Below, in pieces: positions 10,540 to 29,141 of a DNA stretch of 64,000 nt (position 1 is the first letter of the stretch; each line of letters opens with the position of its first letter). The position numbers were made by a program, and so were the translations under genes. The DNA is from Marinifilum caeruleilacunae (lineage in GTDB: Bacteria > Bacteroidota > Bacteroidia > Bacteroidales > Marinifilaceae): contig NZ_RZNH01000021.1 of NCBI RefSeq assembly GCF_013141825.1, positions 27,278 through 91,277 of the forward strand. The letters run 5' to 3'. Under the pieces are notes generated by a model that worked only from the letters and a program-made list of their open reading frames with translations, was not told the DNA's origin and did no database searches.

Positions 10540-10549
10540 CAAATATTTT

Positions 10550-10634: not shown

Positions 10635-10636
10635 CA
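10614..10636 (+). repeat. Left attachment core (attL), tRNA-Ser 3' end
   Basis: A 23-bp stretch from the T-loop GTTCGAATCC to the CCGCA after the acceptor stem. It recurs exactly at 28605-28627. Behind the core the two sides also share GACAAAG, but this side has 8 extra bases (CTTATGCA) between core and that word. Confidence 0.88.
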
Positions 10637-12321: not shown

Positions 12322-14739
12322 ATGCAATTAAATCAAAATATAATAAGAAAATTTGTGTCCATTATTTTTCTGGTGATTCTATGTATCGGAAAATCAATGT
12401 CGCAAAGTAAAACTGTAACAATTAAAGGAACTGTTCTAGATCCTAATGATAATGCAATTCCATTTGCAACAGTATATGAGAATAATACAGAGAATGGAAC
12501 AGTAACAGACGAGAATGGAGAGTTTAAAATAACAGTCTCGATAAAAAGTAATGTTGAATTGGTGTTTAGAAATTTAGGATTTCAAGAAAAAAGAATAATC
12601 ATTCAACAAAGCTCCAATCCTGGATTAATAGTGGTTCTTGAGCCAAGTTTGGAAAAAATAAACGAGGTAGACATTATTGCTAAAAGTACTTCGACAAAAA
12701 TAGAAGAAAAAGGTTTTACTGCCATTTCGCTTCCCGTAAAAGAACTACAAACACAATCAATTGAGATAAATCAGGTTTTAAGTCAGAGTGCAGGAGTTAG
12801 AGTTCGACAGCAAGGAGGATTAGGATCAAGAGTTAACTATAGTATTAATGGATTAGAAGGTAAAGCGGTTCGCTTCTTTCTCGATGGAATTCCAATGGAT
12901 TACTTTGGTTCCTCCTTTTCAGCCGCAACCATTCCTATTTCACAAATTAGTAGAATAGATATTTATAAAGGTGTTGTTCCCGTCGAATTGGGAAGTGATG
13001 CCTTAGGGGGTGCTGTTAATCTAGTTTCTAAAAAAGATGTTAAAAACAATTTAGATTTCAGCTACTCTTTTGGATCATTTAATACCCATAAAGTTTCATT
13101 GTCTGGATTTTGGCGAAATAAAAACAATGGATTAACAGGAAAAATTTCGGCCTTTTACAATTATTCCGATAACAATTATAAAGTATGGGGCAATGATATA
13201 AAGGTGGATGAGAAAGTTGTCAATGAAGATGGTTTTGTAACCTATGTTCCAAAAAGAGGGATCACGGTTGAGCGTTTTCATGATGCCTTTGAGTCAAAAA
13301 CAGTTAAGGCAGACTTTGGATTTACAGGCATAGATCAAGCAGATCAGGTTTTTATCGGACTATTGTTGTCTGGAATGGATAAGGAAATCCAGCATGGAGC
13401 AACAATGTTTGTTCCATTTGGAGAAGCAACTTACGAGCAAAGTGTTATCATGCCATATCTTACCTATAAAAAAAATAATATTTTAACAGAAGGTCTTTCT
13501 TTAAACTTATTTACATCTTATTCTGAATTAATTCGTTCCAGGGTAGATACAACCCGTAACATTTACAATTGGCTAGGTGAAATTGAGGATGAGAAAAGAG
13601 TATTAGGAGGAGAACAAAAACGCACTTTGAATAAATTAACCGAGAATGCTTTCTTAAATAGATTGAATATTGGGTATGATTTATCGGACAATCATAGTTT
13701 AGGTTTTAATACAGTTTTTACACATGTAAAAAGAACAGATGAAGATCCATTGGTTACCCAAAAAACCGATGGTTATTATGCACCACAATATTTTAAGAAA
13801 AGTGTAATGGGCCTTAGTTTGCAAAGCAAATTAATTGATCAGAGATTACAAACCAATCTATTCGCAAAATCTTATTACTATTGGGCCGATATAAAAGTAT
13901 CTACCACCGAGGCAGGAGTTACGAGTTATGAAACCGTTTCAAGTAGTAAAAATAGTTTTGGGATTGGTATTGCTAGTTCTTTTGAATTGAATGAGAATTT
14001 TCTGATTAGTGCTTCTCTTGAACATGCTAATCGTCTTCCCGAAGCCAACGAGGTTTTAGGTGATGGTTTAAATATAATTTCGAATCCTCATCTAAAACCA
14101 GAGTCCAGTTTCAACGCTAACCTCGGATTTAATTGGAATATAAATTTAGATTCAGATAATAGAATTCAATTGGTTCCTAATCTATTTTACAGAAATGTAA
14201 GCCAAAAATTGAAGATGGTAACTGCTAGTGACCCTGGACTATTTCAGTTTGTAAACTTTGATAAAGTTAGAATAAAAGGAATTGATGGTCGAATTCAATT
14301 TTTCCATAAGCAAAGCATAAGATTAACACAATCGGTATCCTACCTGAATCCGGTAATTAAAACGGACAAAGATGAATTGGGAAATGATAATGGATTGGCA
14401 AATACAAGAATGTCTAATACTCCATTTTACCAAGCCAATTCTGAGGCCCGTTACAACTTTAAATCATGGCTAAAAAACAATGCCCAGGCATTTGTCTACT
14501 GGCGCTTTAAATATGTGGGATCTTTTTACAGATATTCTGAGAAATTCGGAAGTGAAAAAAAAGACCAAGTGCCTAAGCAAAATGTAAATAATTTCGGTAT
14601 AGGCTATACTTTCCCAAATCAGAAATTAAGTATTAGTGCTGACGTTAACAATATATTCAACGTTCAGGCTTTTGATAATTATGCTGTCCAAAAACCTGGA
14701 AGAGCATTCTATATAAAAATTAATTGTAAAATATTTTAA
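12322..14739 (+). CDS. TonB-dependent outer-membrane receptor (siderophore/iron type)
   Basis: A protein of 805 residues with a signal peptide (about 1-27, ending SMSQ) and a carboxypeptidase-regulatory-like domain (TIKGTVLDPNDNAIPFATV, about 33-120). The plug follows (VLSQSAGVRVRQQGGLGSR; DIYKGVVPVELGSDALGGAVNLVSKK), then a 22-strand-type barrel ending in FYIKINCKIF. It should bind a ligand at the cell surface and import it with TonB energy. There is no SusD partner, and the neighbours are a DUF4374 lipoprotein, an esterase and a flavin reductase. That context favours a ferric siderophore over a glycan as ligand. First gene of a five-gene operon. Confidence 0.9.
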   Translation: MQLNQNIIRKFVSIIFLVILCIGKSMSQSKTVTIKGTVLDPNDNAIPFATVYENNTENGTVTDENGEFKITVSIKSNVELVFRNLGFQEKRIIIQQSSNPGLIVVLEPSLEKINEVDIIAKSTSTKIEEKGFTAISLPVKELQTQSIEINQVLSQSAGVRVRQQGGLGSRVNYSINGLEGKAVRFFLDGIPMDYFGSSFSAATIPISQISRIDIYKGVVPVELGSDALGGAVNLVSKKDVKNNLDFSYSFGSFNTHKVSLSGFWRNKNNGLTGKISAFYNYSDNNYKVWGNDIKVDEKVVNEDGFVTYVPKRGITVERFHDAFESKTVKADFGFTGIDQADQVFIGLLLSGMDKEIQHGATMFVPFGEATYEQSVIMPYLTYKKNNILTEGLSLNLFTSYSELIRSRVDTTRNIYNWLGEIEDEKRVLGGEQKRTLNKLTENAFLNRLNIGYDLSDNHSLGFNTVFTHVKRTDEDPLVTQKTDGYYAPQYFKKSVMGLSLQSKLIDQRLQTNLFAKSYYYWADIKVSTTEAGVTSYETVSSSKNSFGIGIASSFELNENFLISASLEHANRLPEANEVLGDGLNIISNPHLKPESSFNANLGFNWNINLDSDNRIQLVPNLFYRNVSQKLKMVTASDPGLFQFVNFDKVRIKGIDGRIQFFHKQSIRLTQSVSYLNPVIKTDKDELGNDNGLANTRMSNTPFYQANSEARYNFKSWLKNNAQAFVYWRFKYVGSFYRYSEKFGSEKKDQVPKQNVNNFGIGYTFPNQKLSISADVNNIFNVQAFDNYAVQKPGRAFYIKINCKIF

Positions 14740-14767
14740 TATGTATAAACTCAAAAATAACTTTAAA

Positions 14768-16063
14768 ATGAAAAAGTATCTATCATTAGCATTTGTCTTT
14801 CTATTTGGCTTTGCTCTATTTTCTTGTTCTGATGATGACGATAATGATTCAAATCCTAATCCAGAGCCGGAACCAGAAGTTAGAGACAATTTCAGTGTCT
14901 TGGGAGTAATTGAAGGAGCTTATTATTTGGCTCAAACTGAATCATTAAGTGAAGGAACTCTTAGCTTCGTGAACAATGGAACTCAATTGGAAGCCGATCA
15001 GGCAGCACGTATTATTGCATCTGGAGATTATTTGTATTCTCTAAACTATGGCACGGGTTTGTTAACACAGCTTAAAGCTAATACAAATGGAGGCTATGAT
15101 ATTGTGAAGGAAATTAATGCAGGATTATCAGTTGGTACGAATCGTCCTAGATTTAAGCTGGCTAGCGAAGATATTATTATGGTATACAATGTAACTGTTG
15201 AGCCAATTAAAGATCAAGATGACAACATTATCGACAATACCTGTACTCTACGTTTGGCTTCAGTTTCTATTCCTGATTTGACAATTGCCAATTTAAATGA
15301 ATTTGTAATTCCTCAGTCGGATAATGCAAAACAAGGCGGAACTATTGGTTATCACCCAATGCGTGTGGATGGTCCGGTAATTTCAGAAGATAAAATTTAT
15401 TTTGGATTAATGCACATGGACATGTCTGATCCTACAACTCCACCACCATTCCGTAAGCCAAAACAAACAGGATTGGAAACTTTGGTGTTTGACTATCCCT
15501 CACTAACCAATGGAACTGTAGTAGAATCAAGTGTAGCTTCAGGTCATACGACAGGTTACCGTGCACCATCAATGCACGTTGATGAGGAAGGCGATGTTTA
15601 CCAGGTGAACTGGTTCATGAGTGGAAACTCTTTCGATCTATCTGCTGGTGATAAAACCGTTATTTCGCGATTAAGAGATGGTGTATATGATCAGGCATAT
15701 TCATTTAATGTATCAGAGGCATTAGGTTTAAGTACAAATATTGCATCTGTTGGTTGGTTCTATGTTGGCAATGGAATTGGTTATATGCCAATTCAATTGG
15801 AAGATGAAGGGACTTACTATAATTCAAATTCATGGTCAGTTGCCAAAATTGATGTGTACAATAAAACTGCGGTTAAACTTGACGTACCATTATCAGGATT
15901 ATTCTCTTACGAAAATGGAGTAGCTGCAAACGAAATGTTCTACATGGCTATCAGTCCAATTGGTGGAGAATCATATGTATATGAATTCGACCCAGAATCA
16001 AATGACTTTACACAAGGACTTAAATTGGATGGTGGAAACGTAGTTGTTGACGGCGTTTACTAG
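14768..16063 (+). CDS. DUF4374 lipoprotein
   Basis: A lipoprotein of about 431 residues. The signal peptide MKKYLSLAFVFLFGFALFSC ends in a lipobox Cys (residue 20), followed by an acidic SDDDDND tract and a Pro/Glu linker. The body is beta-rich, propeller-like, and matches the DUF4374 family that accompanies TonB receptors in Bacteroidota iron loci. Known relatives are surface lipoproteins suspected of binding siderophore or haem. An upstream in-frame ATG at 14741, one base after the receptor stop, would add 9 residues; 14768 gives the cleaner signal peptide. A hairpin follows at 16094. Confidence 0.82.
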   Translation: MKKYLSLAFVFLFGFALFSCSDDDDNDSNPNPEPEPEVRDNFSVLGVIEGAYYLAQTESLSEGTLSFVNNGTQLEADQAARIIASGDYLYSLNYGTGLLTQLKANTNGGYDIVKEINAGLSVGTNRPRFKLASEDIIMVYNVTVEPIKDQDDNIIDNTCTLRLASVSIPDLTIANLNEFVIPQSDNAKQGGTIGYHPMRVDGPVISEDKIYFGLMHMDMSDPTTPPPFRKPKQTGLETLVFDYPSLTNGTVVESSVASGHTTGYRAPSMHVDEEGDVYQVNWFMSGNSFDLSAGDKTVISRLRDGVYDQAYSFNVSEALGLSTNIASVGWFYVGNGIGYMPIQLEDEGTYYNSNSWSVAKIDVYNKTAVKLDVPLSGLFSYENGVAANEMFYMAISPIGGESYVYEFDPESNDFTQGLKLDGGNVVVDGVY

Positions 16064-16093
16064 ATCTAGCTAATTTCGATTAATACCATAAAT

Positions 16094-16122
16094 CTCCGAC
16101 AAATATACTGTCGGGGGTTTTT
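16094..16122 (+). terminator. Hairpin with T run inside the operon
   Basis: The stem CTCCGACA (16094-16101) / TGTCGGGG (16109-16116) is followed by a T-rich tail. It lies between the DUF4374 gene and the next lipoprotein gene and probably lowers expression of the downstream genes. Confidence 0.75.
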
Positions 16123-16143
16123 ACATTTTTAATACTCACTATC

Positions 16144-16764
16144 ATGAAAAATTTAATACTTATACTTACCATTGCTTTTTCATTTGCAGCATGCAGTAAA
16201 ATGGGACCTAAAATTGGCCCTGATTACAACAAGGTTAAACCAGAACTTGCTATGGATAAAAAGCAAGAGAAACAATTTGATCAAATAACAGGAAAATATA
16301 CAGAACTTAGAATGGAGGCATTCGCAAAAGCTCGATCGGGTGGTAAAATGAACCGTGAAGCTATGATGGCTGAAATGAAAAAGTTATTTGCAAAACAAGG
16401 AGAGGAACTTAAGCCAGTATTGTCGGATCAACAATTTAAATATTTTACCGAATGGTTGCAAAAGCAGATTCCTGGTCCTGTGGGTTGGTCGAAAGAGTTA
16501 AGAGCAAAAATTAAAACAGAGCTGGCGTTTGACGATGAGAAGTCAAAAATGCTGGAGGCAGTAAACCAGGCTTTTGTTGAAGCTTATGTTGGAGCTCATG
16601 ACAATTACCATGGAAATAATGAAGCCGCCAAAGAATATTGGACTGAGTTCAATAACAACAGAAATGATGCAATGAAACAACTGCTAAACAATGAGGAGTA
16701 TAGTAAGTTTCTTGAGCTAACTAAAGAGGTTCGATTCAAAGGAGAACATGGTAAAGAAGAGTAA
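16144..16764 (+). CDS. Small helical lipoprotein, unknown function
   Basis: A protein of 206 residues with a lipoprotein signal (MKNLILILTIAFSFAAC, Cys17). The body is charged and helical, with repeated LxxxQ-type segments (LSDQQFKYFTEWLQKQ), in style like Spy/CpxP-type periplasmic proteins, though I cannot assign the family. It sits 80 bp after DUF4374 and 2 bp before the esterase gene, so it belongs to the operon. A holder or accessory role for ligand or metal is only a guess. Confidence 0.7.
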   Translation: MKNLILILTIAFSFAACSKMGPKIGPDYNKVKPELAMDKKQEKQFDQITGKYTELRMEAFAKARSGGKMNREAMMAEMKKLFAKQGEELKPVLSDQQFKYFTEWLQKQIPGPVGWSKELRAKIKTELAFDDEKSKMLEAVNQAFVEAYVGAHDNYHGNNEAAKEYWTEFNNNRNDAMKQLLNNEEYSKFLELTKEVRFKGEHGKEE

Positions 16765-16766
16765 GC

Positions 16767-17615
16767 ATGAAAGGTAGAATACTTTTTTTATTATTAATCT
16801 TAACATCTACAGCTGTCCTTGCACAAAAGGACAGTTGTGCTATTACGATTAAAAAGCACATCATAAATTCAAAATTTCTTGATCAAGATCGTGAGGTATG
16901 GGTTGCCCTTCCAAAGACTTATGAATCTGGCAAAAAATATCCTGTATTGTATGTCCTTGATGCAGAATGGCATTTTGATTTGATTCGTGTATTGTCCAAT
17001 AATCTGGCGAAAAGTAAAAAAATACCTGAGCATATTGTAGTTGGTATTCCGCATGTTTCGGTTTCAAAAGAACGTGTGAAAGATTTTACATTCAGTCTTT
17101 CAAATGTAAATCCGTATGGAAAAAAACAATTACCAAAATTTTTTAATGAAGCAAATTGTGGAGGAGGCATTCCATTTTTCTCCTTCTTGAATCAGGAAGT
17201 AGTTCAATGTATTGATTCTTGTTATACAACCAATAACAATAATGTACTACTAGCTCATTCTCTTGCCGGATATTTTGCCTCATATACTTTATCTAGAAAT
17301 CATAAATTTACTGCAATACAAATTTACGATCCAAGCATTTGGTATAACAATGGTGAAGCAATAGAACAAATTAAAGACGTTGAATTTCTAAATAATGGTG
17401 TAAAGGTATTTATGGCAAACCAGATTTTTCCAAATTTTCACTACCAAAACATGAATAAGTTTGCGATAGTTTTAAGGGAATGTAAGCATGTAGATTTTAA
17501 GCAGGTTGAGTTCAGTGATGAAAACCATGGCTCGGTTTATCTCGATGGATTTTTAAAGGGCATTGATCATTTGTATAAGGATTATAAACTAGAACATTTT
17601 AAATTAAAGAAATAG
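16767..17615 (+). CDS. Secreted alpha/beta-hydrolase, siderophore-esterase-like (Fes/IroE type)
   Basis: A protein of 282 residues with a cleavable signal (about 1-19, ending VLAQ). It has the putative-esterase fold: a VWVALPKTYESGKKYPVLYVLD strand pair, the nucleophile elbow LAHSLAGYF (Ser165), an Asp in YDPSIW and a His in DENHGSV. These enzymes cut siderophore ester backbones or other esters. The position between TonB receptor lipoproteins and a flavin reductase supports iron release from a siderophore in the periplasm. The elbow is A-H-S-L-A-G, not G-x-S-x-G. It starts 2 bp after the previous stop. Confidence 0.82.
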   Translation: MKGRILFLLLILTSTAVLAQKDSCAITIKKHIINSKFLDQDREVWVALPKTYESGKKYPVLYVLDAEWHFDLIRVLSNNLAKSKKIPEHIVVGIPHVSVSKERVKDFTFSLSNVNPYGKKQLPKFFNEANCGGGIPFFSFLNQEVVQCIDSCYTTNNNNVLLAHSLAGYFASYTLSRNHKFTAIQIYDPSIWYNNGEAIEQIKDVEFLNNGVKVFMANQIFPNFHYQNMNKFAIVLRECKHVDFKQVEFSDENHGSVYLDGFLKGIDHLYKDYKLEHFKLKK

Positions 17616-17635
17616 TTCATCGCTAATTGAAATGA

Positions 17636-20404
17636 ATGGTACAATTCAAAAAAGTAATATTTAAACTTCATTTATGGCTCGGACTTGCTGCTGGTCTGGT
17701 GATTTTTTTAGTATGCCTAACCGGTGCGATATATACATTTCGTGCCCAAATAGAGAATGGTCTTAATTATAAAAATATTGCTGTGAACGAGGAGGGAACA
17801 CCTCTTTCTTTAGACTCTATTCGTGCTGAATTTAAAAAGAATAATCTTACAATTAATCAAATTGTTGTTCACCCTAAATTAAATCGCAGCATTGAAGTTT
17901 TCTATACCTCAATAGATGGTTCAGAATCTGGAATGTATTACGTAAATCCATTTACCGGAGCTATAATTGGTAACAGAAACTCAGCATTAAGTCCTTTTTT
18001 TGAGTTTGTATTATCCTTACACAAAAGCTTGTTACTAAATAATATTGGGAAACGAATTGTAGGAGCAAGTGTTTTGATTTTCGTATTCATGCTCTTATCA
18101 GGTTTGGCATTATGGTTTCCTAAAAAACTGAGAAGTTTAAAAAGAAAACTGCGATTTAAAAGGAGTGAAGGCAAAGCACGTTTAACTCTTGATTTACACC
18201 AAGTAAACGGTTTCTACTCTTTTCTTGTGTTACTATTAATTGCCATAATGGGATTGTATATTACCTACCCATGGATGAAAAGTACATTAATAGTTGTTTT
18301 TGGTGGCAATCCGGTATTATCACAGGCTTCTGATAAGCAAAGTGAAAAGATTAAAATGGAATTGGCCGCATCATTTGCTGAATCCTTAAAAAAAATCATA
18401 GATCAAAATAATGAGAAGCAGGTTGATGGTAATTATTCCCTTGATACAATCCTTTTAAGAGCGAATGAGGCTTTACCATACAAATCAATAACAAGAATAC
18501 AATTACCTACTGCCGAGAATTCATGGGTAAGTGTAAGAAAGAGTAATAGGAAAAACTTATTGAGGGCAATATTGATAGATGAATTGGATTTTAACCAAAA
18601 AGCTGAGTTGAAAAACAAAAATCTATTTAAGGATAAAAGCCTGGATCAAAAGTTTGTGGCATTGTCGCTACCCTTGCATACGGGAGAAATATTGGGATGG
18701 CCAAGTTTGGTTCTATATTTTCTTGTAAGTCTTATTGGTGCATCTTTACCTGTTACAGGCACTTTAATGTGGTACAGACGTATGAAAACTCAAACTCGAT
18801 TCAATCGAGCGGGCATTATATCAGAAAGTTTAGAAAAGGATTATTCTCACATAAGTACACAAAAATGGTTAATTGCTTATGCAAGTAAGTCAGGTAATTC
18901 GAAATTAATTGCACTTGCACTACAACAACAATTTAAAAAAACGGGCTTAAATGTAAAATGTAGTAATATTTCGCAGGTTGGATTAAATGAAATTAGGGAC
19001 CTAAGCCATTTATTTGTTACGATAAGTACAGATGGACAGGGAGTTGAGCCACCATCAGCAAGAAAATTGTTCAAAGAACTGCGGGATTCAAAAAACGGTA
19101 CTTTAGATCAGTTACAATATTCAATTTGTGCTTTGGGCGATTCTGCTTACGACGAGTTTTGTAAGGCTGGTAAGGATTTGGAATCTTTATTGCTTAAGAA
19201 TAAATCAAAAACACTTGTAGAAAGAGTTGATTGTGATACCGATTTTTCAAAAGAATCAAGGAATTGGATAATTGAGTGCATTAATAAATCGCTTTGCCTG
19301 AAGGATATTCCTTTGGATGAATATGGAACAGGTGATATTAATTTAAACTCCAAACAAATTCAGTTACTAAAAGTTAAGGAAATTTTTCAATTAACTAAAG
19401 GGAAAACTCAAAAGCCATGTTTTCATATTACACTAGAGTCCGATCATGATATTAGCTATATAAAACCTGGTGATTCAATAGAAATTCACCCTAACAATCC
19501 TAAATGGTTGGTTAATGATATTCTAGATCGTTTACATATCCGTAAATCGAAATTACTGTTTAAAAACTTAAGTGAAGATAAAGAGTTAACCAGGCTGTCC
19601 AAAAATACTTTACAGAGGTATTACAATATATCCCATGATGAAAAATTAAATCAATTATTGAATAGTTCTTCTAAATTGATTAAATATCTGACAAAGGCTA
19701 ATTTTTATGACTTATTGATGGATTTTCCATATTTTTTAAGTTCGAAACAATTGTTGGCGATCTTACCTCCAAAGAAAGGAAGATTGTATTCTGTTGCATC
19801 GAGCACTGCTGTTTATCCCCGGCAAATTCATCTTACTGTGAAATCAATTCGCTATCAGTTTAAATCAAGAAAACACGAAGGAGTTGGATCTATAGAATTA
19901 ACCGAAAATCTGCAAATTGGTGAAATTCTGAAATATAAACATTATCCTAATTTTGATTTTAGATTGCCAGAATCTCCAGATGTACCCCTTCTGATGATTG
20001 GTATTGGAACTGGAATAGCACCCTTTAGAGCCTTTATTCAAGAGTGCATGTGGAATAATTATAATAATAAAATTTGGCTAATTTGGGGAGATAAAAATAG
20101 AGAGTCTGATTACTTGTATAAGGATGAACTAGAAGAATTAAAGAAGAACAATAGTCAAATAAGAATAGATTTGGCATTTTCACGTGATGGTGAATCAAAA
20201 ACATACGTACAAGATATAATTCGACAAAATCAGAAGGATTTTATTAGTTACTTAATCAATGGTGCTCATGTTTATGTTTGCGGATCAATTAAAATGGCTA
20301 ATGACTTACGGGAAGTTGTAAAAAATAGTCTGTATATGAGTTCCAATTTAAAAATTAGCTATGAGAAACTGAATAAAACCAAATATCATGAAGATACTTA
20401 TTAA
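17636..20404 (+). CDS. PepSY-membrane domain fused to flavodoxin/FAD/NADPH reductase
   Basis: A large fusion of 922 residues. The N-terminal part is a PepSY-associated membrane domain with about four TM segments (FKLHLWLGLAAGLVIFLV at 6-23; others near 140, 190 and 370). From about 405 a flavodoxin domain follows (AYASKSGNS; TDGQGVEPPSA). The rest is an FNR-type module with an FAD region (GRLYSVASS, near 715) and an NADPH region (MIGIGTGIAPFRAF near 785; YVCGSIKMA near 880). It is built to pass electrons from NADPH through FAD and FMN across the inner membrane. In this operon the likely acceptor is ferric siderophore. Sulfite reductase flavoprotein is a common mis-label because of the C-terminal half. 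Confidence 0.85.
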   Translation: MVQFKKVIFKLHLWLGLAAGLVIFLVCLTGAIYTFRAQIENGLNYKNIAVNEEGTPLSLDSIRAEFKKNNLTINQIVVHPKLNRSIEVFYTSIDGSESGMYYVNPFTGAIIGNRNSALSPFFEFVLSLHKSLLLNNIGKRIVGASVLIFVFMLLSGLALWFPKKLRSLKRKLRFKRSEGKARLTLDLHQVNGFYSFLVLLLIAIMGLYITYPWMKSTLIVVFGGNPVLSQASDKQSEKIKMELAASFAESLKKIIDQNNEKQVDGNYSLDTILLRANEALPYKSITRIQLPTAENSWVSVRKSNRKNLLRAILIDELDFNQKAELKNKNLFKDKSLDQKFVALSLPLHTGEILGWPSLVLYFLVSLIGASLPVTGTLMWYRRMKTQTRFNRAGIISESLEKDYSHISTQKWLIAYASKSGNSKLIALALQQQFKKTGLNVKCSNISQVGLNEIRDLSHLFVTISTDGQGVEPPSARKLFKELRDSKNGTLDQLQYSICALGDSAYDEFCKAGKDLESLLLKNKSKTLVERVDCDTDFSKESRNWIIECINKSLCLKDIPLDEYGTGDINLNSKQIQLLKVKEIFQLTKGKTQKPCFHITLESDHDISYIKPGDSIEIHPNNPKWLVNDILDRLHIRKSKLLFKNLSEDKELTRLSKNTLQRYYNISHDEKLNQLLNSSSKLIKYLTKANFYDLLMDFPYFLSSKQLLAILPPKKGRLYSVASSTAVYPRQIHLTVKSIRYQFKSRKHEGVGSIELTENLQIGEILKYKHYPNFDFRLPESPDVPLLMIGIGTGIAPFRAFIQECMWNNYNNKIWLIWGDKNRESDYLYKDELEELKKNNSQIRIDLAFSRDGESKTYVQDIIRQNQKDFISYLINGAHVYVCGSIKMANDLREVVKNSLYMSSNLKISYEKLNKTKYHEDTY

Positions 20405-20877
20405 AAGAGAATGAAAGAGGTTTTATTTGATTGAAATCAAGAATAAATACAATAATGCCAGATACTTGTGGTGAATTCCAAACTAATTTTATTGACAGCT
20501 GGAAGATCTCAGAAATATTCAATTTAACATATGTACAACCACTTTTATTAAGTGGCAAAATTAAACTTTCTTATTGCACTATTAAAAATGCATTCTACTA
20601 ATCACTCTCCTACCCAGATGATACTGACTGGAAAGAAAATTTTTACATCTACTACTAATTATACTCAACTAAAGATTTGTAAACACTACATGAATTCACA
20701 TGATGAATTTATTGAAATAATTATCACTTAAGAATAATGCCCCTAAATTTAACTATCTAATATTCTTTACAATCTGGAGTATAATATAAAAGTGAATCGG
20801 CAATTATAACTTCCTGATGAGTATTGATTCATTTCGTTAATCACCGATTACTTAAATCATGTATAGCTTCGACTTCA
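20405..20877. other. Intergenic stretch between convergent cargo blocks
   Basis: A+T-rich, with no gene and no clear hairpin terminator found. It separates the plus-strand iron operon from the minus-strand HMA2/ATPase cluster. Confidence 0.6.
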
Positions 20878-21129
20878 TTATTCTTTTGTATCTTCTTTCA
20901 ACTTCTGCTCCATTTCAGCAATAAGATCTTCAATATGTTCCTTAGTACTCACCAACTCTTCAATGTTCATATCATCAAAGCCTTTGTCGTTTGATTCTGG
21001 TATATTTATACCTTGGCTTCTTAAAAATTCATTAATTTGAGCCTTGTTTTTATTGTATAAGTAATAAGCTCCCAATGAAACACCAACCCCAATTAAAATT
21101 CCCGTTGTAAGATTTCCTTTGTTTTCCAT
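20878..21129 (-). CDS. Small YtxH-like membrane protein
   Basis: A protein of 83 residues with one N-terminal glycine-rich membrane segment (TTGILIGVGVSLGAYYLY, about 8-25) and a charged, coiled-coil-like tail (IEDLIAEMEQKLKEDTKE). The layout is that of YtxH-type or gas-vesicle-like small proteins. It is the last gene of the minus-strand HMA2/ATPase cluster, 22 bp after the preceding one, and probably acts beside those membrane proteins. Function unknown. Confidence 0.72.
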   Translation of the reverse strand: MENKGNLTTGILIGVGVSLGAYYLYNKNKAQINEFLRSQGINIPESNDKGFDDMNIEELVSTKEHIEDLIAEMEQKLKEDTKE

Positions 21130-21151
21130 AGTTAATTGTTTTATTGTTTAG

Positions 21152-21979
21152 TTATTGATTAAAATGCAATACCATTCCGTTTATATTTTTTCCTACGCCT
21201 TCAATAAATTCATCATGCGAATTCATTAGGTCCTTAGAGCCATCGAACATAGTATTTCTAAACCCTCCTCTTGTTAAAGCAAAGCTTTTCGATAGCTGAT
21301 GAAACAAATCAGCAACAGTTCCCCTGTTTGGTAATTTCGAAACATTCAGATGATAGTATATTTTTTTGTTCTCTTCCTTTTTTCTTGCTACTTCCAGCAC
21401 TATTCCCTCATTGTCATTAGTTGAAAAATGTCTGCCAAATGTACTTACCCAAGTAAGGGCAGTAGGAATAAGTAATCGCTGATTACTTACCACAGAATTC
21501 ACCAGCAAGCCTATTGAAAGTACTTCAGGATCAACACTACCTTTTTTACGATAATCAAATTCAGCATGTTCAATTACAGCAGCTGCCGTAGTTACAGCAC
21601 TGATCCAATTTGTTGCCTTTTTTAATATGAGATTTTTAGAAAAAAGATTTAATGTAACCGCCGTAACAATACATAAGCCAGAAAATATTCCTTTGGAAGT
21701 AATGAATTCACCCTTTCCTTTCTGAGTAATTTTCACAGGAATCATATTATTTTCCACCGAATAAGCCACAGCAACTCGAATAAGAATTTCGTTAGCTTTT
21801 ACTACTTCATTATTAAAGAAGACCAGAACATTCTGACTTAGCGGATTATAATCGAATGATTCTATTCCACTATGTTCCAATACCTGAGACTTTAGTTTCT
21901 TGAAATGCTTGATGGGTTTCGAAAAATTTATTCGCAACCTATTATTCAATCGATGTTTTATTTTTAATACCAACTCCAT
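21152..21979 (-). CDS. HMA2-like membrane protein, ATPase partner
   Basis: About 275 residues. The N-terminal ~80 residues look like an HMA2-type ferredoxin-like domain (KIKHRLNNRLRINFSKPIKHF; later SQNVLVFFNNEVV), without a CxxC metal motif. A membrane region follows (about 110-200), then a C-terminal soluble part (KIYYHLNVSKLPNRGTVADLFHQL). The frame reaches back to 22063, but ATG 21979 forms a TAATG stop-start overlap with the ATPase gene and gives the natural start MELVLKIKH, so translation is coupled to the ATPase. It resembles the N-terminal half of the ATPase without its catalytic domains. I infer an accessory subunit. Confidence 0.75.
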   Translation of the reverse strand: MELVLKIKHRLNNRLRINFSKPIKHFKKLKSQVLEHSGIESFDYNPLSQNVLVFFNNEVVKANEILIRVAVAYSVENNMIPVKITQKGKGEFITSKGIFSGLCIVTAVTLNLFSKNLILKKATNWISAVTTAAAVIEHAEFDYRKKGSVDPEVLSIGLLVNSVVSNQRLLIPTALTWVSTFGRHFSTNDNEGIVLEVARKKEENKKIYYHLNVSKLPNRGTVADLFHQLSKSFALTRGGFRNTMFDGSKDLMNSHDEFIEGVGKNINGMVLHFNQ

Positions 21980-24177
21980 TACCTTTCCATTTTGAAAAAA
22001 AACAATCTTAACGAATTTGAAACCACAGCCACTGTGGTCATATTGTGCAGAAATGCACCCCAAAATACTGGTAAAAGTCCAGTAGCTCCCAGAACAAGAC
22101 CCAAACTATTAATTCCTATCGAAGCAATAAAATTCTGTTGCACAGTTTGCATTGTTCTACGGGAAAGTTGAATTGCCGAAGGAATTGTTAATGGGTTATC
22201 ACTTTGTATGGCAATATCGGCAGCTTCCATTGCAATATCTGTTCTCTTGCTTCCCAATGCAATACCAACATCAGCATAAGCCAACGCAGGTGCGTCATTT
22301 ATACCATCTCCAATCATTACTACTTTAGAGCCTTTAGACTGAAGATTTAAAGCAAAGCGGGCTTTATCTTCGGGCATTAATTCCGACTTGTACCGATCGA
22401 AAGTCATTTTACTGGCAACCACCTCCGCCTGCTGTTCCACATCTCCAGTCAAAAGGATAATATCATCAACTTCAAGGTTTCGTAAACGATTAATGGTTTT
22501 TTTCATATTCTCCCTAAGAGGATCATTCAGTCCTATTAATCCGCATAGTTTATTTGATTTAGAGACATAGACTATGTTTTCCCCACGAAGCATCAATCTC
22601 GAAATAATGTCTTTAGCTGGTTCCAACAGAATTCCATTCTCCTTCATAAATTTAGCATTACCAACCCTCACAATACTTCGCCCAATTTTAGTTTTCACTC
22701 CCCTGCCTATTACAACCTCAATTTCATTGTGTTTCGGGATTTTTATTCCATTTAACTTCACTCGTTGCATAATTGCATGAGCCACAGGATGTGTTGATGT
22801 TTCCTCAGCTGCTGCTACTATCCCAAGCAAATCAGGAATATTTAACTTTTCATCAACAGGAATAATGGATTTTACTTCAGGATTCCCTTCTGTCAAGGTT
22901 CCGGTTTTATCAAATATGACTGTATCAACTTCTGCAAGGGTCTCAAGGTAGTTGCTGCCTTTAATTAATACTTTATTTCTGGCACCGGTAGAAATTGCTG
23001 CTGTAAGCGCTGTTGCTGTTGATAAACGTATACTACAAGAGTAATCGATCACCAACATATTTAGCGCACGCATTGGACTTTTAGTAACAGCATATACGAT
23101 ACCTCCCAGAATGAAATTTAATGGTATGAGGCTGCCAGAAAATTTATCGGCAACATTTTGCACCTGTGCCTTATTGTGAGAGGCCTCCTCAACCATATGA
23201 ATTATTTTCGAAGCAGCAGTATCTTCCTGGGTTTGTTCGGCCATAATGGAAACAGTTCCGGTTTTTATTGTACTGCCTGCAAAAACATAGTCACCTTTTG
23301 ACTTCTCTTTTGGCATATACTCCCCAGTAATCGAGGAATCATCAACTGTTGCACTTCCATTAATTACCTTCCCATCAACACTGATGATCTCACCCGAATG
23401 CACAACAATGGTATCTCCTTTATGTATTTCTTCTTGTGGTGTTTTTATCAATGAGCCATCCTGTTCTAATTTCCATACGAATTTTTCTCCGGTAGCAAGC
23501 ATTGCCCTTATAGCTTTTCTTGTTCGATTCATGCTATATGCAGTAAGCAATTCAGCTATATCAGAAAGCAAAATAATAGTTAATGAGGAGATCCCATTAC
23601 CTGACAGAAGACTAGCAAGAATAGATACAGCGCTTAACGTATCTGCATTGGGTCTCTTATTATACCGTAGAGATTCATAGCCACTCTTAAAAACCGGTCG
23701 GGCCAAACTCAAACTAGTCAGTGCAGTAAAATTTGTAAGTCTTCCAAACATGGAACGAGCTGGAGTGGTATTTCGTTTAAAAAGCGCCCAAGCCAGTGCT
23801 GCCGATCCTACCAATACATTTCGGAACAATTCTTCCACAGGCTCTTCCTGCAATCGCCGTTCATTTACGGTAAGTCTCGATTTTTCTTTTCGTTCTCCCT
23901 TAAATGCAGGAATGGAAAATTGTGAAATAATATCTTCTACTTTACGCAAAACAATTTTCGAATCAAATTCATCAGAATAATATATCAACACATTACTTGT
24001 TATGGGAGAGATTTTAACCGATGAAATAAAATGAACGCTTAACAGTAACTCTTCTATGTCCTTCTTATGATCCGAAAGAAATTTCAATGCACGGCAATAT
24101 ATTCGCATACGACCATGTAACTGGTGTATAGGATTACATTGTAGTAAAGGTCTTTTATAGTTCTGCCTCAAATTCAT
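21979..24177 (-). CDS. P1B-type heavy-metal ATPase with HMA2 domain and S-C-S membrane motif
   Basis: A pump of 732 residues. The N-terminal HMA2-like domain (HQLHGRMRIYCRALKFL, about 19-90) lacks CxxC. The A-domain has a SSITGEYMP loop, a TGES variant. The P-domain has DKTGTLTEGNP with the phosphorylated Asp at 423; THPVAHA is the HP motif and MIGDGINDAPAL the hinge. The transmembrane metal motif that is CPC in Cu, Zn or Cd pumps reads Y-S-C-S here (C381), followed by IRLSTATALTAAIS. The P-type mechanism is certain; the ion and direction are not. The next gene is translationally coupled, and the upstream gene overlaps it by 23 bp. Confidence 0.9.
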   Translation of the reverse strand: MNLRQNYKRPLLQCNPIHQLHGRMRIYCRALKFLSDHKKDIEELLLSVHFISSVKISPITSNVLIYYSDEFDSKIVLRKVEDIISQFSIPAFKGERKEKSRLTVNERRLQEEPVEELFRNVLVGSAALAWALFKRNTTPARSMFGRLTNFTALTSLSLARPVFKSGYESLRYNKRPNADTLSAVSILASLLSGNGISSLTIILLSDIAELLTAYSMNRTRKAIRAMLATGEKFVWKLEQDGSLIKTPQEEIHKGDTIVVHSGEIISVDGKVINGSATVDDSSITGEYMPKEKSKGDYVFAGSTIKTGTVSIMAEQTQEDTAASKIIHMVEEASHNKAQVQNVADKFSGSLIPLNFILGGIVYAVTKSPMRALNMLVIDYSCSIRLSTATALTAAISTGARNKVLIKGSNYLETLAEVDTVIFDKTGTLTEGNPEVKSIIPVDEKLNIPDLLGIVAAAEETSTHPVAHAIMQRVKLNGIKIPKHNEIEVVIGRGVKTKIGRSIVRVGNAKFMKENGILLEPAKDIISRLMLRGENIVYVSKSNKLCGLIGLNDPLRENMKKTINRLRNLEVDDIILLTGDVEQQAEVVASKMTFDRYKSELMPEDKARFALNLQSKGSKVVMIGDGINDAPALAYADVGIALGSKRTDIAMEAADIAIQSDNPLTIPSAIQLSRRTMQTVQQNFIASIGINSLGLVLGATGLLPVFWGAFLHNMTTVAVVSNSLRLFFFKMER

Positions 24178-24538
24178 AGCCTTCTTCCTTTAGCTCTTTG
24201 TACATTTCATCTACCTTATTAATCGTCATCTTTTCCTCCTTCGTTACGATTTCATATAGCTTTTCTCTTACTCTGTTAAGAAATGTCAGAATATGTTTAT
24301 CAGAGGTTACATCCTTGTCATATAAAATCAATGCTTTTGACGAAATAAAATTCACATTTAGGGATTGAATGCCTTTTAATCGGTATCGTTGAAAGAAGCT
24401 TTCTATTTCCTGAGGTTCAATTTTGTTTTTTACGTATTTAAGAATTGGTATTTTAACCCTTAACCTTCCGGGAATACTGTGCACCAATTGAATCTTGGAT
24501 AAATTAAATGCAGTTCTATATAAGAGATTTGTAGACAT
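24155..24538 (-). CDS. HMA2-domain small protein
   Basis: A soluble protein of 127 residues, essentially a single HMA2-like domain. It shows LVHSIPGRLRVKIP (about 19-32), a strand with SLNVNFISSKALILYD (about 58-73) and a helical tail that is Glu/Lys-rich. The H-x-x-PGR-x-R motif occurs in most members of this cluster. There is no CxxC, so it is not a standard copper chaperone. The reading frame overlaps the ATPase start by 23 bp. It could dock to the ATPase N terminus or deliver its ion; this is inference. Confidence 0.75.
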   Translation of the reverse strand: MSTNLLYRTAFNLSKIQLVHSIPGRLRVKIPILKYVKNKIEPQEIESFFQRYRLKGIQSLNVNFISSKALILYDKDVTSDKHILTFLNRVREKLYEIVTKEEKMTINKVDEMYKELKEEGYEFEAEL

Positions 24539-24590
24539 TATTTACGATTTAAGTTATTTCCGGGAGTTAAATTTACAAGTCAAGCTTTTA

Positions 24591-25139
24591 TCACGGCTTT
24601 TGCAAGTTCATATACGCCCAATACAAAAAATTCAATCCAGGTGGCATTAGGTTGCGCTTGACTATCATCGAATAAGCTCCAAAACCAATAAATGAAGTAG
24701 TTACCAAACTCCTTAAATCCATTACTCCATTGGTATACTCATAAACACCAGTATTTAGTGATTTAAACAAATCCTTTAACTCCTTTGTTAGCATTGAATT
24801 TGGAGATTTTTCAATTGATTTTTCAAGCCCTAATAATTTAACCAGGACACCCGTTAAGGTTTCAACATCAATATGATCCTTATCAAACTCAATTAATACT
24901 TTTCCCGTAATAGGATTGGGCGTGATACCATTGATTTGTTCCGCCTTTTCTAATTGAGTTTTTAATTGTTTACATTTGTCAGGCTCATTTTTTAGTGTAG
25001 GAACTAAAAATCGAACACGGCCAGGTATTAGATGCATTATTTCAACTATGCCTTTAAATCCTTTAAATCCTTTCATACCTTTGTTCATTAAATTTCCTGC
25101 CAATAGCCTTGCTATCAGTAAACCTGTTATGATGCGCAT
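24591..25139 (-). CDS. HMA2-domain protein with membrane tail
   Basis: A protein of 182 residues. After a short hydrophobic or basic N terminus (MRIITGLLIARLLAG, then GMKGFKGFKG) comes the motif IMHLIPGRVRFLVP (about 34-47) and an HMA2-like fold ending KVLIEFDKDHID (about 84-95). A hydrophobic stretch (SLVTTSFIGFGAYSMIV, near 144-160) closes the protein. It lies 52 bp upstream of the 127-residue HMA2 gene on the same strand and is likely part of the same transcript. Family function unknown. Confidence 0.7.
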   Translation of the reverse strand: MRIITGLLIARLLAGNLMNKGMKGFKGFKGIVEIMHLIPGRVRFLVPTLKNEPDKCKQLKTQLEKAEQINGITPNPITGKVLIEFDKDHIDVETLTGVLVKLLGLEKSIEKSPNSMLTKELKDLFKSLNTGVYEYTNGVMDLRSLVTTSFIGFGAYSMIVKRNLMPPGLNFLYWAYMNLQKP

Positions 25140-25510
25140 AATGTATTAGATGATTCGTTTTCCCTCTTACTAGTAAGATAATGAAAATTACCATTTTTAG
25201 AAAATCTACGAACTGGAATTCAAAGCTTTAATTTGAATCAATATTGTTTTTTATGAACACTTATATTTTAGTTTTTATTCAAACAGGCTGTTTAAGAAAT
25301 ACCTTAAAAACTTGATTTTTTATATAAAAATCATGAATTAAGAATTTGGCAAATAAGATTTCTGAGGTGAGAAATAACAGATGTTCATTAACAGAAAAAA
25401 ACGCTGTATTCGAGGATTACAACGAAAAACTATGCATCGTTAAGTCGAACGATATGAAGAGCAAAAGTTAAGATAAGAGAATTTTTGTCCTCACATATAT
25501 CTTATTTTAT
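25140..25510. other. Non-coding stretch within HMA2 cluster
   Basis: No gene found. A small dyad ATCGTT-AAGTCG-AACGAT (about 25437-25454) is present. The stretch lies upstream of the HMA2/ATPase run on the minus strand and may hold its promoter. Confidence 0.5.
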
Positions 25511-25610
25511 GAATCAAGAGATAGACAAATTTCAAACGTTTTAAACATCATTTGATAAGTGTATAACCGAATTATTTATAGAGATTATAAATTTGTCTAT
25601 CTCTAAATTC
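25511..25610. repeat. 100-bp segment with long inverted repeats
   Basis: Arms at 25517-25532 (starts AGAGATAG) and 25589-25604 (ends CTATCTCT) are perfect 16-bp inverse complements 56 bp apart. Including the outer GAAT/ATTC they span 22 bp per arm with 2 mismatches. It could be a MITE-like insertion or a structured RNA leader. Confidence 0.75.
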
Positions 25611-25623
25611 TATGTATAAGTAT

Positions 25624-26106
25624 TTATGAAATTTGATTAGATCGACGTCCATTCCCTATCAATCCATTCACTGATTTTTGAAGAGGTTTTCTATTTAAAC
25701 CCATATGTCCTAAAACGATGCCGGTAAAAGCTGTCCCAAAAGCTATGTGCCATTTCTTACTATCAAATGCCAAGGCCCCTAGTGTTCCTGCGAAACTAAT
25801 AATCATACCAGGATTTACAATACTTCTCACTTTGCTTTTGTTACTCTTGGAACGTTTTGTAGTGATATGATCCTGCTCTGGTGGGAAACAACTTTTCCAT
25901 TGTTCTTTTAGCCTCATTTGCATGTTTTTCATTGATTCATCATCCTTATACAAAATCAGAATTGATCCAATACAATCATTCAACCTCACTTCTTTAACAT
26001 GCTCAATGGTTCGAATCCTATCCATGAATAAGTCAGTCTTTTTACGATCCAAAAAAACTTTATTCACACAGCGAATACGCCCAGGTATATGACTAACCAC
26101 ATTCAT
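25624..26106 (-). CDS. HMA2-domain protein with membrane hairpin
   Basis: A protein of about 160 residues. The start MNVVSHIPGRIRCVN carries the H-x-x-PGR-x-R motif; an IGSILILYKDD strand completes the HMA2-like part. The C-terminal half is a Gly-rich hydrophobic hairpin (PGMIISFAGTLGALAF; IAFGTAFTGIVLGHMG), in layout like the Gly-zipper of small membrane partner proteins. ATG 26106 is preferred over 26130 because AGAGGAG lies just before it. First gene of the cluster in transcription order, separated by about 480 bp from the rest, so it may have its own promoter. Confidence 0.7.
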   Translation of the reverse strand: MNVVSHIPGRIRCVNKVFLDRKKTDLFMDRIRTIEHVKEVRLNDCIGSILILYKDDESMKNMQMRLKEQWKSCFPPEQDHITTKRSKSNKSKVRSIVNPGMIISFAGTLGALAFDSKKWHIAFGTAFTGIVLGHMGLNRKPLQKSVNGLIGNGRRSNQIS

Positions 26107-26345
26107 AGTTCTATCTCCTCTTCCAATCATGATTCAATTGTCTTCTTTTATAGATGTCAAACATTTTGGAACTGTTGTCCCATTTAAATTCAGACAAAAA
26201 TATCTAAAAAGCTGAATCATACAAAACTAGGCTTTTATTTAGACAATGATTTCATTATACCAAAGATTTAGAGTCAAATATGTATAGTTACATTATAAGT
26301 AGTTCCATAATAAGGGTACATTTTACATACCCAAACTATATTTAA

Positions 26346-26512
26346 TGAACCAACATATGGTAGGTTCACAAAAGGCATACCCTATTCGCACCATATAGAT
26401 ATTTTTCAGGTTCATTTTTGAGGTGGGTTCAAAGCTGGGATAATTTTGATCGAATTAAGCTCAATTGTAGATCAATTTTGGGTTCAGGTTGAAGTGTACC
26501 CTATTTTGAACC
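26346..26512. repeat. GGTTCA/TGAACC word cluster
   Basis: Six copies in 167 bp: TGAACC at 26346 and 26507; GGTTCA at 26363, 26409, 26426 and 26481. Another lies at 26667. TACCCTATT also occurs twice (26378, 26497) within the same stretch. Confidence 0.7.
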
Positions 26513-26596
26513 TCTAATACATTGTGAATCTAATGTTATTAAGAAATGAGCCTAAAAATTATTTTCTCACTCAATTATCATTTTCTTTTAAAAAAA

Positions 26597-26961
26597 ATAC
26601 ACATACAATACGTTGTGTATCCGTACCACTTTTTCTGCGTGATTTTTCAACAATCAAGACCATTTAGGTTCATTAGAATTGAGAATAACAAGTAGAAACT
26701 AAATGGCTTTTGATCACATCTAATAGTCATATTACTTGATAATTACACTACCATTCACTTACTAGACTTATGTAGACATCTGAGAACGAAGCCAGCCATT
26801 GAGTTTGGATAATATCTGTGCTAAATTGGTAGAAGATAAGTAACTTAAAAAGTATGTGTATGCGTAACAATATTACCTGCGTATACACATACAATTTAAT
26901 AGAAAATTGAAGTATTATTTGTGCTTAAAAGTATGTGTATCTGTACACATTTTTTCTGCGT
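26597..26961. repeat. Triplicated GTATGTGTAT / CTGCGT motif with inverted arms
   Basis: Copies are at 26614-26640, 26852-26883 and 26931-26961. Each has a TGTGTAT half, a GTAC/GTAAC middle and CTGCGT at the end. The second copy is the left part of a 41-bp dyad (26852-26892; arms GTATGTGTAT and ATACACATAC), and ATACACATAC recurs at 26597-26606. Confidence 0.75.
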
Positions 26962-27208
26962 TCATCATTCCAAATGCCCAGTAAAACCTACCATTCATAA
27001 GGTTTTATCAATAAGAGTAAATTGAATTATAAAGCATTTAGTCAATAATCTTAAAGGCAAATTTAATATTTTTTATTTACGGCCAAATAAATTAATTGTT
27101 TTTTGTTAAAACACTAAGTTGTATTCCAGCTACTGATTTTGCCATCATCTTTCCATTCTCCATTCGGGAATGTTACACTGAAATTTACAGCATAACAACA
27201 GCCAACCA

Positions 27209-28444
27209 CTAACCCCAATATTTCTGCATCGAATCAATAACAGATTTTTGTGAAGTCTTTTTATATTTTATTAAGGTTTTGGGATCCCGTATACCTGTAA
27301 TTTTCATAATTATATGATCAGGCATTCCCTTTTCACTTGACAAGGTGATAAAGGTTCGTCGAGCTGTATGACTCGACACCATTTTATATTTAGGATTGTA
27401 AACCACCTCTTTCTTAGTTCCCCTATATATGATTTCCTTTATATCTTCATTAAACTCGGCCAATTCGCAAACTTTCTGAATATGCTCGTTAAACTTCTGA
27501 CTAGATATCCGGGGTAACTCCCAGTCATACTTATCTAAAAGCTCTTTTAATTTTAGATGCAATGGTATAAAACTTTCAGTTTCTGTTTTCTCAGCTTTCT
27601 TAATTATCATTTCTCCTTGAACATCCGATTTCTCAAAAACCGAATAATCCGAAAATCTTTGTCCAGAATAAACACCTATTAAAAACAAATCTCTTACACG
27701 CTCCAATGATTTACGTGGCAATGAGATATTTTCAAGAATTGCAACCTCTTCACTAGTTAAAAAGACATCATCCGGTTGATACTTGTTTACGGGATTCTTT
27801 ATTGTCTTTAGGTTGATATTGTGATATTTCGTTTCAGACCAAATCAAGACAGTAATCAAGAAATTAATTGTACGGTGTAATGTGTTATCATTATGTGGTT
27901 TAAACGGTTTAACCCTGATAACACGTAAAAACCCGCAAAATTCATCTATCCAATCCTGGGTAATTGAATTAAATTCTATTTTTCTTCTCTTTTTGGTTTC
28001 AAAAGCTATTAACTTGTTTTTAAGGTTCTTGTATTTCTGATTCCAGGAATGAGATTGTCCTTTAGACTTATTTTTAGTATCAATAAAATCCTGAATAGCA
28101 TCTATGAGATACTGGCTCTCCCCTTTAATGGCTTTATGCTTGAATTTTTCATCAAACAATTGCTTTAGTAATTCTCTGGTTAAAGGCTTATTAAGCTTTT
28201 CATACTCTTTAATTTTTTCATCCAAAAAGTCGGAGTACATAGCTAATACGGAACCAAGATGTTTCAATTCTACACCCCCAGCCCCTCTTTTTACCACTGG
28301 CATTCGACTTTTACTATTCCAATTATCAGGGTGAATCTTTTGATTAGTAGAATATTTAAAGTTTTTATTCTGATTTTTTAAAAAATAAATCAAATAAATT
28401 GGCGTGATTTTATCACTTTTGGGTTCTTTAAGAAAAAAATACAT
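27209..28444 (-). CDS. Tyrosine recombinase (site-specific integrase)
   Basis: An integrase of 411 residues of the Bacteroidota phage/ICE type. The N-terminal arm-binding region and SAM-like core-binding domain (about 115-220) precede the catalytic domain. In the catalytic domain GVYSGQRFSDYS gives the first Arg (about 265), SSHTARRTF gives H-x-x-R (about 365) and LIKYKKTS gives the nucleophile Tyr (about 395). The position that is usually His before the Tyr reads G-I-R. The gene ends about 160 bp from the right att core and is transcribed inward. It should excise and insert the island at tRNA-Ser. Confidence 0.92.
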   Translation of the reverse strand: MYFFLKEPKSDKITPIYLIYFLKNQNKNFKYSTNQKIHPDNWNSKSRMPVVKRGAGGVELKHLGSVLAMYSDFLDEKIKEYEKLNKPLTRELLKQLFDEKFKHKAIKGESQYLIDAIQDFIDTKNKSKGQSHSWNQKYKNLKNKLIAFETKKRRKIEFNSITQDWIDEFCGFLRVIRVKPFKPHNDNTLHRTINFLITVLIWSETKYHNINLKTIKNPVNKYQPDDVFLTSEEVAILENISLPRKSLERVRDLFLIGVYSGQRFSDYSVFEKSDVQGEMIIKKAEKTETESFIPLHLKLKELLDKYDWELPRISSQKFNEHIQKVCELAEFNEDIKEIIYRGTKKEVVYNPKYKMVSSHTARRTFITLSSEKGMPDHIIMKITGIRDPKTLIKYKKTSQKSVIDSMQKYWG

Positions 28445-28604
28445 AGCTTATATTTCGTTTCTACAAATATACAAAGGGGAAAGTTAAGGGGAAAGAAAAA
28501 GTGCTTTTAAAGTCAATTTTGAAGTAATTAAAAAGATAACAAACCTCGCATAAGCCTTTATTTATCTACATAGTACAGAATTCGAAATATTTTACAGATA
28601 GAAT

Positions 28605-28627
28605 GTTCGAATCCCTCTCTCTCCGCA
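28605..28627 (+). repeat. Right attachment core (attR)
   Basis: An exact 23-bp copy of 10614-10636, from the tRNA-Ser T-loop to CCGCA. It is followed directly by GACAAAG and the former tRNA terminator. Confidence 0.88.
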
Positions 28628-28630
28628 GAC

Positions 28631-28663
28631 AAAGGGAACTTCAAAATTGAGGTTCCCTTTTTT
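28631..28663 (+). terminator. Displaced tRNA-Ser terminator
   Basis: The stem AAAGGGAAC (28631-28639) / GTTCCCTTT (28652-28660) with a T run stands directly after the att core, as expected for the terminator of the uninterrupted tRNA operon. Confidence 0.85.
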
Positions 28664-28745
28664 ATGCATAAGTTTTGAAAATACAGGAAGAGGGATGATC
28701 CCGATTCTCGGGAGTAACATGTTCATGACGACTGAAAGAAGGAAT

Positions 28746-28762
28746 AATCCCTCTCTCTCCGC
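28746..28762 (+). repeat. Third, partial copy of the tRNA-Ser 3' end
   Basis: Seventeen bases (AATCCCTCTCTCTCCGC) identical to the acceptor/T-arm end of tRNA-Ser, 135 bp right of attR. The T-loop part is lost. Confidence 0.8.
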
Positions 28763-28769
28763 TGAAAAC

Positions 28770-28804
28770 AAGCACTGAAGTTGAAAAACTTTGGTGCTTT
28801 TTTT
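28770..28804 (+). terminator. Terminator after third tRNA-end copy
   Basis: The stem AAGCACTGAAGTT / AACTTTGGTGCTT has one mismatch and is followed by a T run. It repeats the order tRNA end then terminator seen at the other two copies. Confidence 0.8.
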
Positions 28805-29141
28805 ATGCAATAAATTCAATGGAATTAGAACCTCTGGGTTCGTAACATATTCATGAAAAAAGATTCCATCATCTTAAGTACCTAAATTAAATTTATTGTC
28901 ATTGACCTCTTAATTTCAAATAAAGAACAAATTTTTCACACTAGTTAAGCATTGCAATATCAACTAAAATCATCTATAATTATTTGATATCAACACTTTA
29001 CAAAATACTTCCATGTAATCTTATAAATATTACATAATTATTTATCATTTGTTTTATAATCAAATACTTTCATCACATTTGAAAATCTAAACTTTATGAT
29101 ATAGCTTAGCAATATAAATATGATTTTAAAGCAAAGATTAG
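28805..29141. other. Intergenic stretch upstream of propeller gene
   Basis: Very A+T-rich. No gene, hairpin or clear repeat seen. Confidence 0.55.

Follow-up and report, generated by a model that had tools for sequence, protein, structure and literature searches.

A conserved cluster of HMA2 proteins around a P1B6-type ATPase in Marinifilum caeruleilacunae is probably a ferrosome-type operon

The window analysed here, a 64,000-nt stretch of the Marinifilum caeruleilacunae genome (contig NZ_RZNH01000021.1), contains six open minus-strand genes flanked by a siderophore operon and a tyrosine recombinase. These six genes probably constitute a ferrosome-type (fez-like) operon, the pump of which would transport Fe(II) into a vesicle; ferrosomes are membrane-bound bodies in which some bacteria store iron. 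The cluster is conserved as an operon in other bacteria. Its ATPase bears the P1B6 signature and is related to FezB of Clostridioides; it is accompanied by small HMA2 proteins and by the product of gene 5, itself related to the N-terminal half of the pump.

The genes are numbered 1 to 6 (P0001 to P0006) and all lie on the minus strand. Gene 1 (25624..26106) encodes an HMA2 domain followed by a C-terminal transmembrane (TM) hairpin carrying H128 and H142. Its start was placed at the ATG at 26106, which has AGGAGA ahead of it, and residues are numbered from the longer ORF at 26130. This gene stands apart, 484 nt upstream of gene 2, and the interval carries an imperfect 22-nt inverted repeat (arms 25511-25532 and 25589-25610), a candidate terminator or regulatory site. 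Gene 2 (24591..25139) encodes an HMA2 protein with a C-terminal Gly-containing hydrophobic hairpin and a full-length HMA_2 match, and gene 3 (24155..24538) a small HMA2 protein with no obvious TM tail. Gene 4 (21979..24177) encodes the P1B6-type, FezB-like ATPase, with an HMA2 N terminus and the motifs DYSC and LHN. Gene 5 (21152..21979), which starts with ATG, encodes a half-pump composed of an HMA2 domain and four helices, with no catalytic domains. Gene 6 (20878..21129) encodes 83 aa, an N-terminal Gly-rich TM segment followed by a charged tail; it is a member of the set and lies within the limits given in an earlier note on this DNA, though it was unnamed there. Genes 2 to 6 are tightly spaced, with gaps of 52 and 22 nt and two overlaps, one of 23 nt between the end of gene 3 and the start of the ATPase, the other as TAATG at the junction of genes 4 and 5.

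The Pfam domain HMA_2 (PF19991) was detected above cut-off in gene 1 (2.2e-10), gene 2 (1.5e-47), gene 3 (3.5e-9) and the ATPase N terminus (2.4e-8), the match in gene 5 (9.2e-4) falling under it. A sequence check found CxxC in none of the six proteins. The description of these proteins in the earlier note as HMA2-like and devoid of CxxC is thus borne out, and both proteins that were modelled (genes 1 and 5) have HMA-like domains in the predicted structures, in line with the fold it had suggested. Its claim of a shared H-x-x-x-G-R-x-R motif stands in part: only genes 2 and 3 and the ATPase carry the exact motif, gene 1 is one residue short (H-x2-GRxR) and the half-pump carries the variant H-x3-NRxR. 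Among related loci, HxxxGRxR was found in 33/66, 29/60, 50/65 and 39/65 members of the four HMA2 classes, and is therefore common in the HMA2 family without being universal. Its occurrence within the first 130 aa of 8/3624 ORFs outside the HMA2 set, against 29/60 to 50/65 within the classes, shows that it is not due to chance.

Genome contigs were scanned with two patterns taken from an alignment of three ATPases (the window, a Fusobacterium record and Priestia pBM400). The last of these, from the laboratory strain Priestia megaterium QM B1551, has the set HMA2-HMA2-ATPase-HMA2-small protein. Since these were ATPase patterns alone, neighbouring genes had no part in the choice of loci. The scan returned 67 loci, spread over Bacteroidota, Fusobacteriota, Bacillota, Desulfobacterota and KSB1. 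Because the TM4 motif MLVID[YF][SI]C formed part of one of the two patterns, its conservation among these 67 loci is to some extent built in. With two records from a plasmid collection (L061 and L062), 69 loci were examined. L061 is NZ_CP084075.1 of Fusobacterium vincentii, a 2.1 Mb record filed as plasmid, the size and genes of which look chromosomal.

The gene order HMA2-HMA2-ATPase-HMA2/TM-small TM (HH-A-H-S) is kept in 51/69 loci, and the set is a single metal-handling system, as the earlier note had proposed. Other orders are H-A-H-S (7 loci) and HHH-A-H-S (1 locus), and the partial orders of the 10 remaining loci (HH-A 3, H-A-H 2, HH-A-H 2, A-H-S 2, HH-A-S 1) come mostly from short contigs. 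At least one HMA2 gene stands beside the pump in 69/69 loci, so that the co-occurrence of the small proteins with such ATPases, on which the same note had staked its reading, was found throughout; the downstream HMA2/TM gene is present in 65/69 and the small TM gene in 62/69. Bacilli loci have their first two genes in swapped order, and across loci the gene 2 family is the first or the second gene of the operon. With the surroundings of 20 other P-type pumps as control (L002, L004-L022; 394 ORFs), the small-TM-protein model gave no matches. The HMA2 model gave 11 domain matches there, and the 10 listed all fall in pump frames except those of a single 128-aa ORF (L021); as this model recognizes ordinary HMA domains in the controls, a few of the HMA2 matches in the 69 loci could be of that kind. 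The nearest relatives of the window cluster occur in 13 Bacteroidales/Bacteroidetes MAGs (L064-L076), with 64-67% identity and isolate names that suggest sediment. The cluster is a real, conserved metal-handling system.

The window ATPase is a heavy-metal P-type ATPase (TIGR01525 over cut-off, NCBIfam) with DYSC in TM4, D[YF][SI]C in its family, and LHN in the last TM helix. In the available part of the literature, P1B6 pumps are characterized by HN in their last TM helix and P1B1/P1B2 pumps by CPC, and CtpC, which has CPC, is ranked only P1B6-like (PMC9374683). CPC is present in 9/9 of the pumps listed among 22 aligned outside the window family. The window pump has HN and lacks CPC, the P1B6 combination. 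A P1B-1/P1B-2 pump (CopA/ZntA) was also considered and ruled out, there being neither CPC in TM4 nor a CxxC HMA domain.

The known ferrosome (fez) machinery is made up of P1B6 ATPases and small membrane partners, Desulfovibrio magneticus being named among the hosts in the accessible text of PMC11334425. For this reason the word undescribed, applied to the system in the earlier note, is too strong. A wholly undescribed pathway is very hard to credit with a pump related to the P1B6 pumps of ferrosomes, even though the literature found on the HMA2 domain/PF19991 concerned only plant immune receptors, in a search whose scope left the founding ferrosome papers outside.

The relation to a ferrosome pump was obtained through Clostridioides. 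In the family of Peptostreptococcus canis, HMA_2 was above cut-off in 25/71 genomes. Six genomes of this family have a single HMA_2 match, located in a 707-aa frame, and all six are among the 8/15 genomes tested (G367-G374) that carry the exact site of the tpi primer used for C. difficile typing. The candidate Clostridioides fezAB locus pairs the gene for a 131-aa DUF6110 protein with that for a 699-aa pump. Its composition fits C. difficile fezAB, identified as CD630_05910-05920 in the part of PMC11651100 available, and the position of the locus in G367 (L155, at 0.71 of 4.11 Mb) is about that expected for CD630_05910-05920 if gene numbers are ordered. The HMA_2 match of the Clostridioides pump reaches 26.9 of 30 bits, i.e. 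it is under cut-off; having been found through HMA_2, this pump is free of the TM4 selection bias mentioned above.

The window family and the Clostridioides ATPase shared one side of a branch with support 97/91 in a 43-row tree and 98/93 in a 28-row tree from which rows with long end branches had been left out; this support is for the split, and reading it as a clade requires a root outside that group. Among the tree rows, the Clostridioides ATPase is the nearest neighbour of the window family, at 30% identity and with a stem of ~3 changes per column. Grouping of the window family with a Rhodococcus CtpC-like pump was disfavoured (p-AU 0.027, for a group chosen after the first tree). The window pump therefore groups with a proven FezB, the only such FezB in the trees, across a long stem and with the root assumed outside.

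A pump of Desulfobacterota (L197), with an HMA_2 N terminus and CPC, falls outside the window group in the trees. Loci L194-L203 of this phylum represent a second HMA2 system, in which 10/10 loci encode a 1001-1043-aa pump carrying HMA2 at its N terminus, with at least one small HMA2 gene nearby in every case, the loci having been picked by HMA_2 matches. Pfam classes the L198 pump as P2-type (Cation_ATPase_N and _C).

In C. difficile fezAB, as in the window cluster, a small Gly-containing TM partner gene stands beside a P1B6-type pump whose N terminus is HMA2-like, whose TM4 carries D[YF]SC and whose last TM helix carries HN. The fezAB locus differs by having two genes, by its FezA, a DUF6110 protein with no significant match to gene 6, and by the absence of separate HMA2 proteins or a half-pump within the 10 kb read. 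According to the published text available, FezA and FezB of C. difficile are both required for ferrosomes and are Fur-repressed. Longer fez operons, of six genes, exist in Rhodopseudomonas palustris and also in Shewanella putrefaciens, and a pump is present in both. The six fez genes of R. palustris ferrosomes are given as RPA2333-2338 in the accessible part of PMC12016538. The window cluster is like these two operons in gene number and may be equivalent to them gene by gene.

The small partner gene also brings in a rather unlikely alternative, a PacL/CtpC-like platform at the cell membrane where a scaffolded pump would expel Fe(II) or another divalent metal, with no organelle. In mycobacteria, PacL1, a small TM scaffold with a Gly motif, has its gene next to that of a P1B6-like pump, and P1B6 pumps are also accompanied by DUF6110 proteins; at Rhodococcus L063, the sole locus of the PacL1-CtpC kind in our set, a DUF1490 gene stands with the pump, and gene 6 has a similar layout. 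CtpC-type pumps, however, retain CPC in TM4, which the window family lacks, L063 has no HMA2 neighbours, and the nearest proven relative, that of Clostridioides, makes ferrosomes according to the accessible literature. At E<=1, Pfam gave no DUF1490 match in gene 6, and DUF6110 does not match this gene either. Membership of the PacL/CtpC effluxosome itself was rejected, the window pump having DYSC and not CPC and gene 6 having no DUF1490 match. The layout of gene 6 is FezA/PacL-like, and hhalign against DUF6110-type FezA gave a probability of 7.9 with shallow profiles.

Under the preferred ferrosome-type reading, gene 1 is a FezC/DUF4405-like candidate heme protein. It matches DUF4405 with an E of 0.074, under the Pfam cut-off. 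In the AF2 model, its HMA2 part has a pLDDT of ~90 and its hairpin is of low confidence. His128 and His142 (H-x13-H), invariant in 3/3 sequences (gene 1 and its homologues at L078 and L121), lie on one predicted helix (125-145), again with low confidence. Two histidines 14 residues apart suit b-type heme ligation. Full-length relatives of gene 1 were found in only 2/32 other genomes (L078 and L121), both of which had been used to build the model. FezC of ferrosomes is, in the part of PMC11334425 available, a DUF4405-like heme protein or cytochrome, possibly dimeric, the conserved histidines of its TM hairpin being the proposed heme ligands in a homodimer. Not all fez clusters include such a cytochrome. 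Gene 1 has a comparable hairpin with conserved histidines and differs from FezC by its HMA2 domain and by a DUF4405 match that stays under cut-off.

We then considered the genes around the operons. In 8/69 loci (L076, L096, L113, L117, L120, L121, L128, L130), a FeoA, FeoB or DtxR gene is present no more than 2.7 kb away, and none was found beyond this distance in the available flanks of the 69 loci, some of which are short. Neither Feo nor DtxR genes occur in the available flanks of the other 61/69 loci, which include 6/6 named Peptostreptococcus loci. In the Peptostreptococcus family (set L157, L188-L193), feoA-feoB stands directly upstream and on the same strand in 2/7 operons (L157, L193).

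These neighbours bear on the metal. A system for Mn, Co or Zn, with only pump ancestry in common with ferrosomes, would be in line with two Bacilli loci: L113 has a DtxR/MntR-type regulator (Pfam) and ABC-transporter-like genes upstream, and L115 has ABC-transporter-like genes downstream, all of which transporter genes we take to resemble Mn/Zn-type metal transporters. We regard such a system as improbable in view of the Feo genes at L120, L128, L130, L157 and L193, the DtxR-FeoA fusion at L117 and the siderophore operon that adjoins the window cluster. This xus-like siderophore-iron operon (12322..20404, plus strand) is convergent with the cluster and is given as context only. It encodes a TonB receptor (12322-14739), a DUF4374 protein (14741-16063, the match covering profile positions 2-77 of 431 only), an esterase (16767-17615) and a PepSY_TM + CysJ-like flavoreductase fusion (17636-20404), a composition like that of xus-type xenosiderophore (XusABC) systems as set out in the available portion of PMC13142918. 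Elsewhere in its genome, the host also has an 838-aa FeoB-type frame. No Fur-box-like site was found upstream of the operon; the window holds 6 matches vs 11.7 expected, for a site that may differ in this phylum.

The operon was probably acquired horizontally. HMA_2 above cut-off was found in the own genome only among 58 searched, being absent from the 57 other relatives. Across the phylum it was above cut-off in 2/296 genomes, the own one and another with a single 30.3-bit match inside another ATPase frame; at E<=0.001 it was found in 38/296, mostly as weak matches within ATPase-size frames, and all five matches of the own genome at this threshold fall inside the cluster. A tyrosine recombinase gene (27209..28444, minus strand; Pfam PF13102/PF00589) adjoins the cluster and is a possible carrier. 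The mobile island of the earlier note thus keeps the recombinase and the absence of HMA_2 from the relatives on its side, but lacks a flanking direct repeat of at least 24 nt (searched within 20300-29200) and an empty site; the latter could not be demonstrated because the 5 other genomes of the genus do not share the flanks that were tested.

Several repeats were observed in the window. Between the cluster and the recombinase, 26845-26961 contains a pair of 35-nt direct repeats, along with nested inverted repeats whose core is TATGTGTAT, possibly arm sites of the recombinase. Short sequences at 28746-28854, 26297-26464 and 11319-11485 are repeated in the own and other genomes of the genus. A tRNA array (Tyr, Gly, Tyr, Gly, Ser) at 10128-10635 includes a duplicated Tyr-Gly pair.

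The nature of gene 5 was addressed by profile comparison. A gene 5 profile of 56 rows aligned with an ATPase profile of 20 rows over 204 columns (hhalign 98.6%, E 7.7e-16), the aligned stretch running through the HMA2 domain and the first TM helices up to the start of the A-domain. Together with the TAATG overlap, this upholds the pump half, without catalytic domains and coupled to the ATPase, that the earlier note had recognized. The AlphaFold2 model of gene 5 (pLDDT 85) shows an HMA2 fold, four helices and two strands; fold comparisons agree with the pump-half reading and are not decisive. All 56 gene 5 rows share R16, H138 and W177. No description of the half-pump or of the HMA2 proteins was found in the literature searched, a search that did not extend to the founding ferrosome papers, which may well describe them.

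Taken as a ferrosome-type operon, the cluster could work as follows. The gene 4 ATPase would sit in a membrane patch destined to become an intracellular vesicle, which it would load with cytosolic Fe(II). Genes 2 and 3 and the N termini of genes 4 and 5, which share the GRxR module, would serve as adaptors and not as thiol metal chaperones, gathering the pump, the half-pump and the small TM protein of gene 6 into the patch. Gene 1 would be an optional bis-histidine heme hairpin, altering the redox state of the stored iron. More tentatively, it is possible that the catalytically empty gene 5 pairs with the FezB-like pump in a hetero-oligomeric P-type ATPase, and that GRxR-HMA2 is a common assembly tag, recruiting the Fez proteins and curving the membrane into a vesicle.

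The five-gene signature, with its optional sixth gene, is found in Bacteroidales, Fusobacterium, Leptotrichia, Peptostreptococcus, Christensenella and Priestia, among others, and part of these hosts are harmless. The conserved half-pump offers a specific handle on possible organelle assembly in these bacteria. If true, the half-pump reading and the GRxR-HMA2 tag would show how a ferrosome is built.
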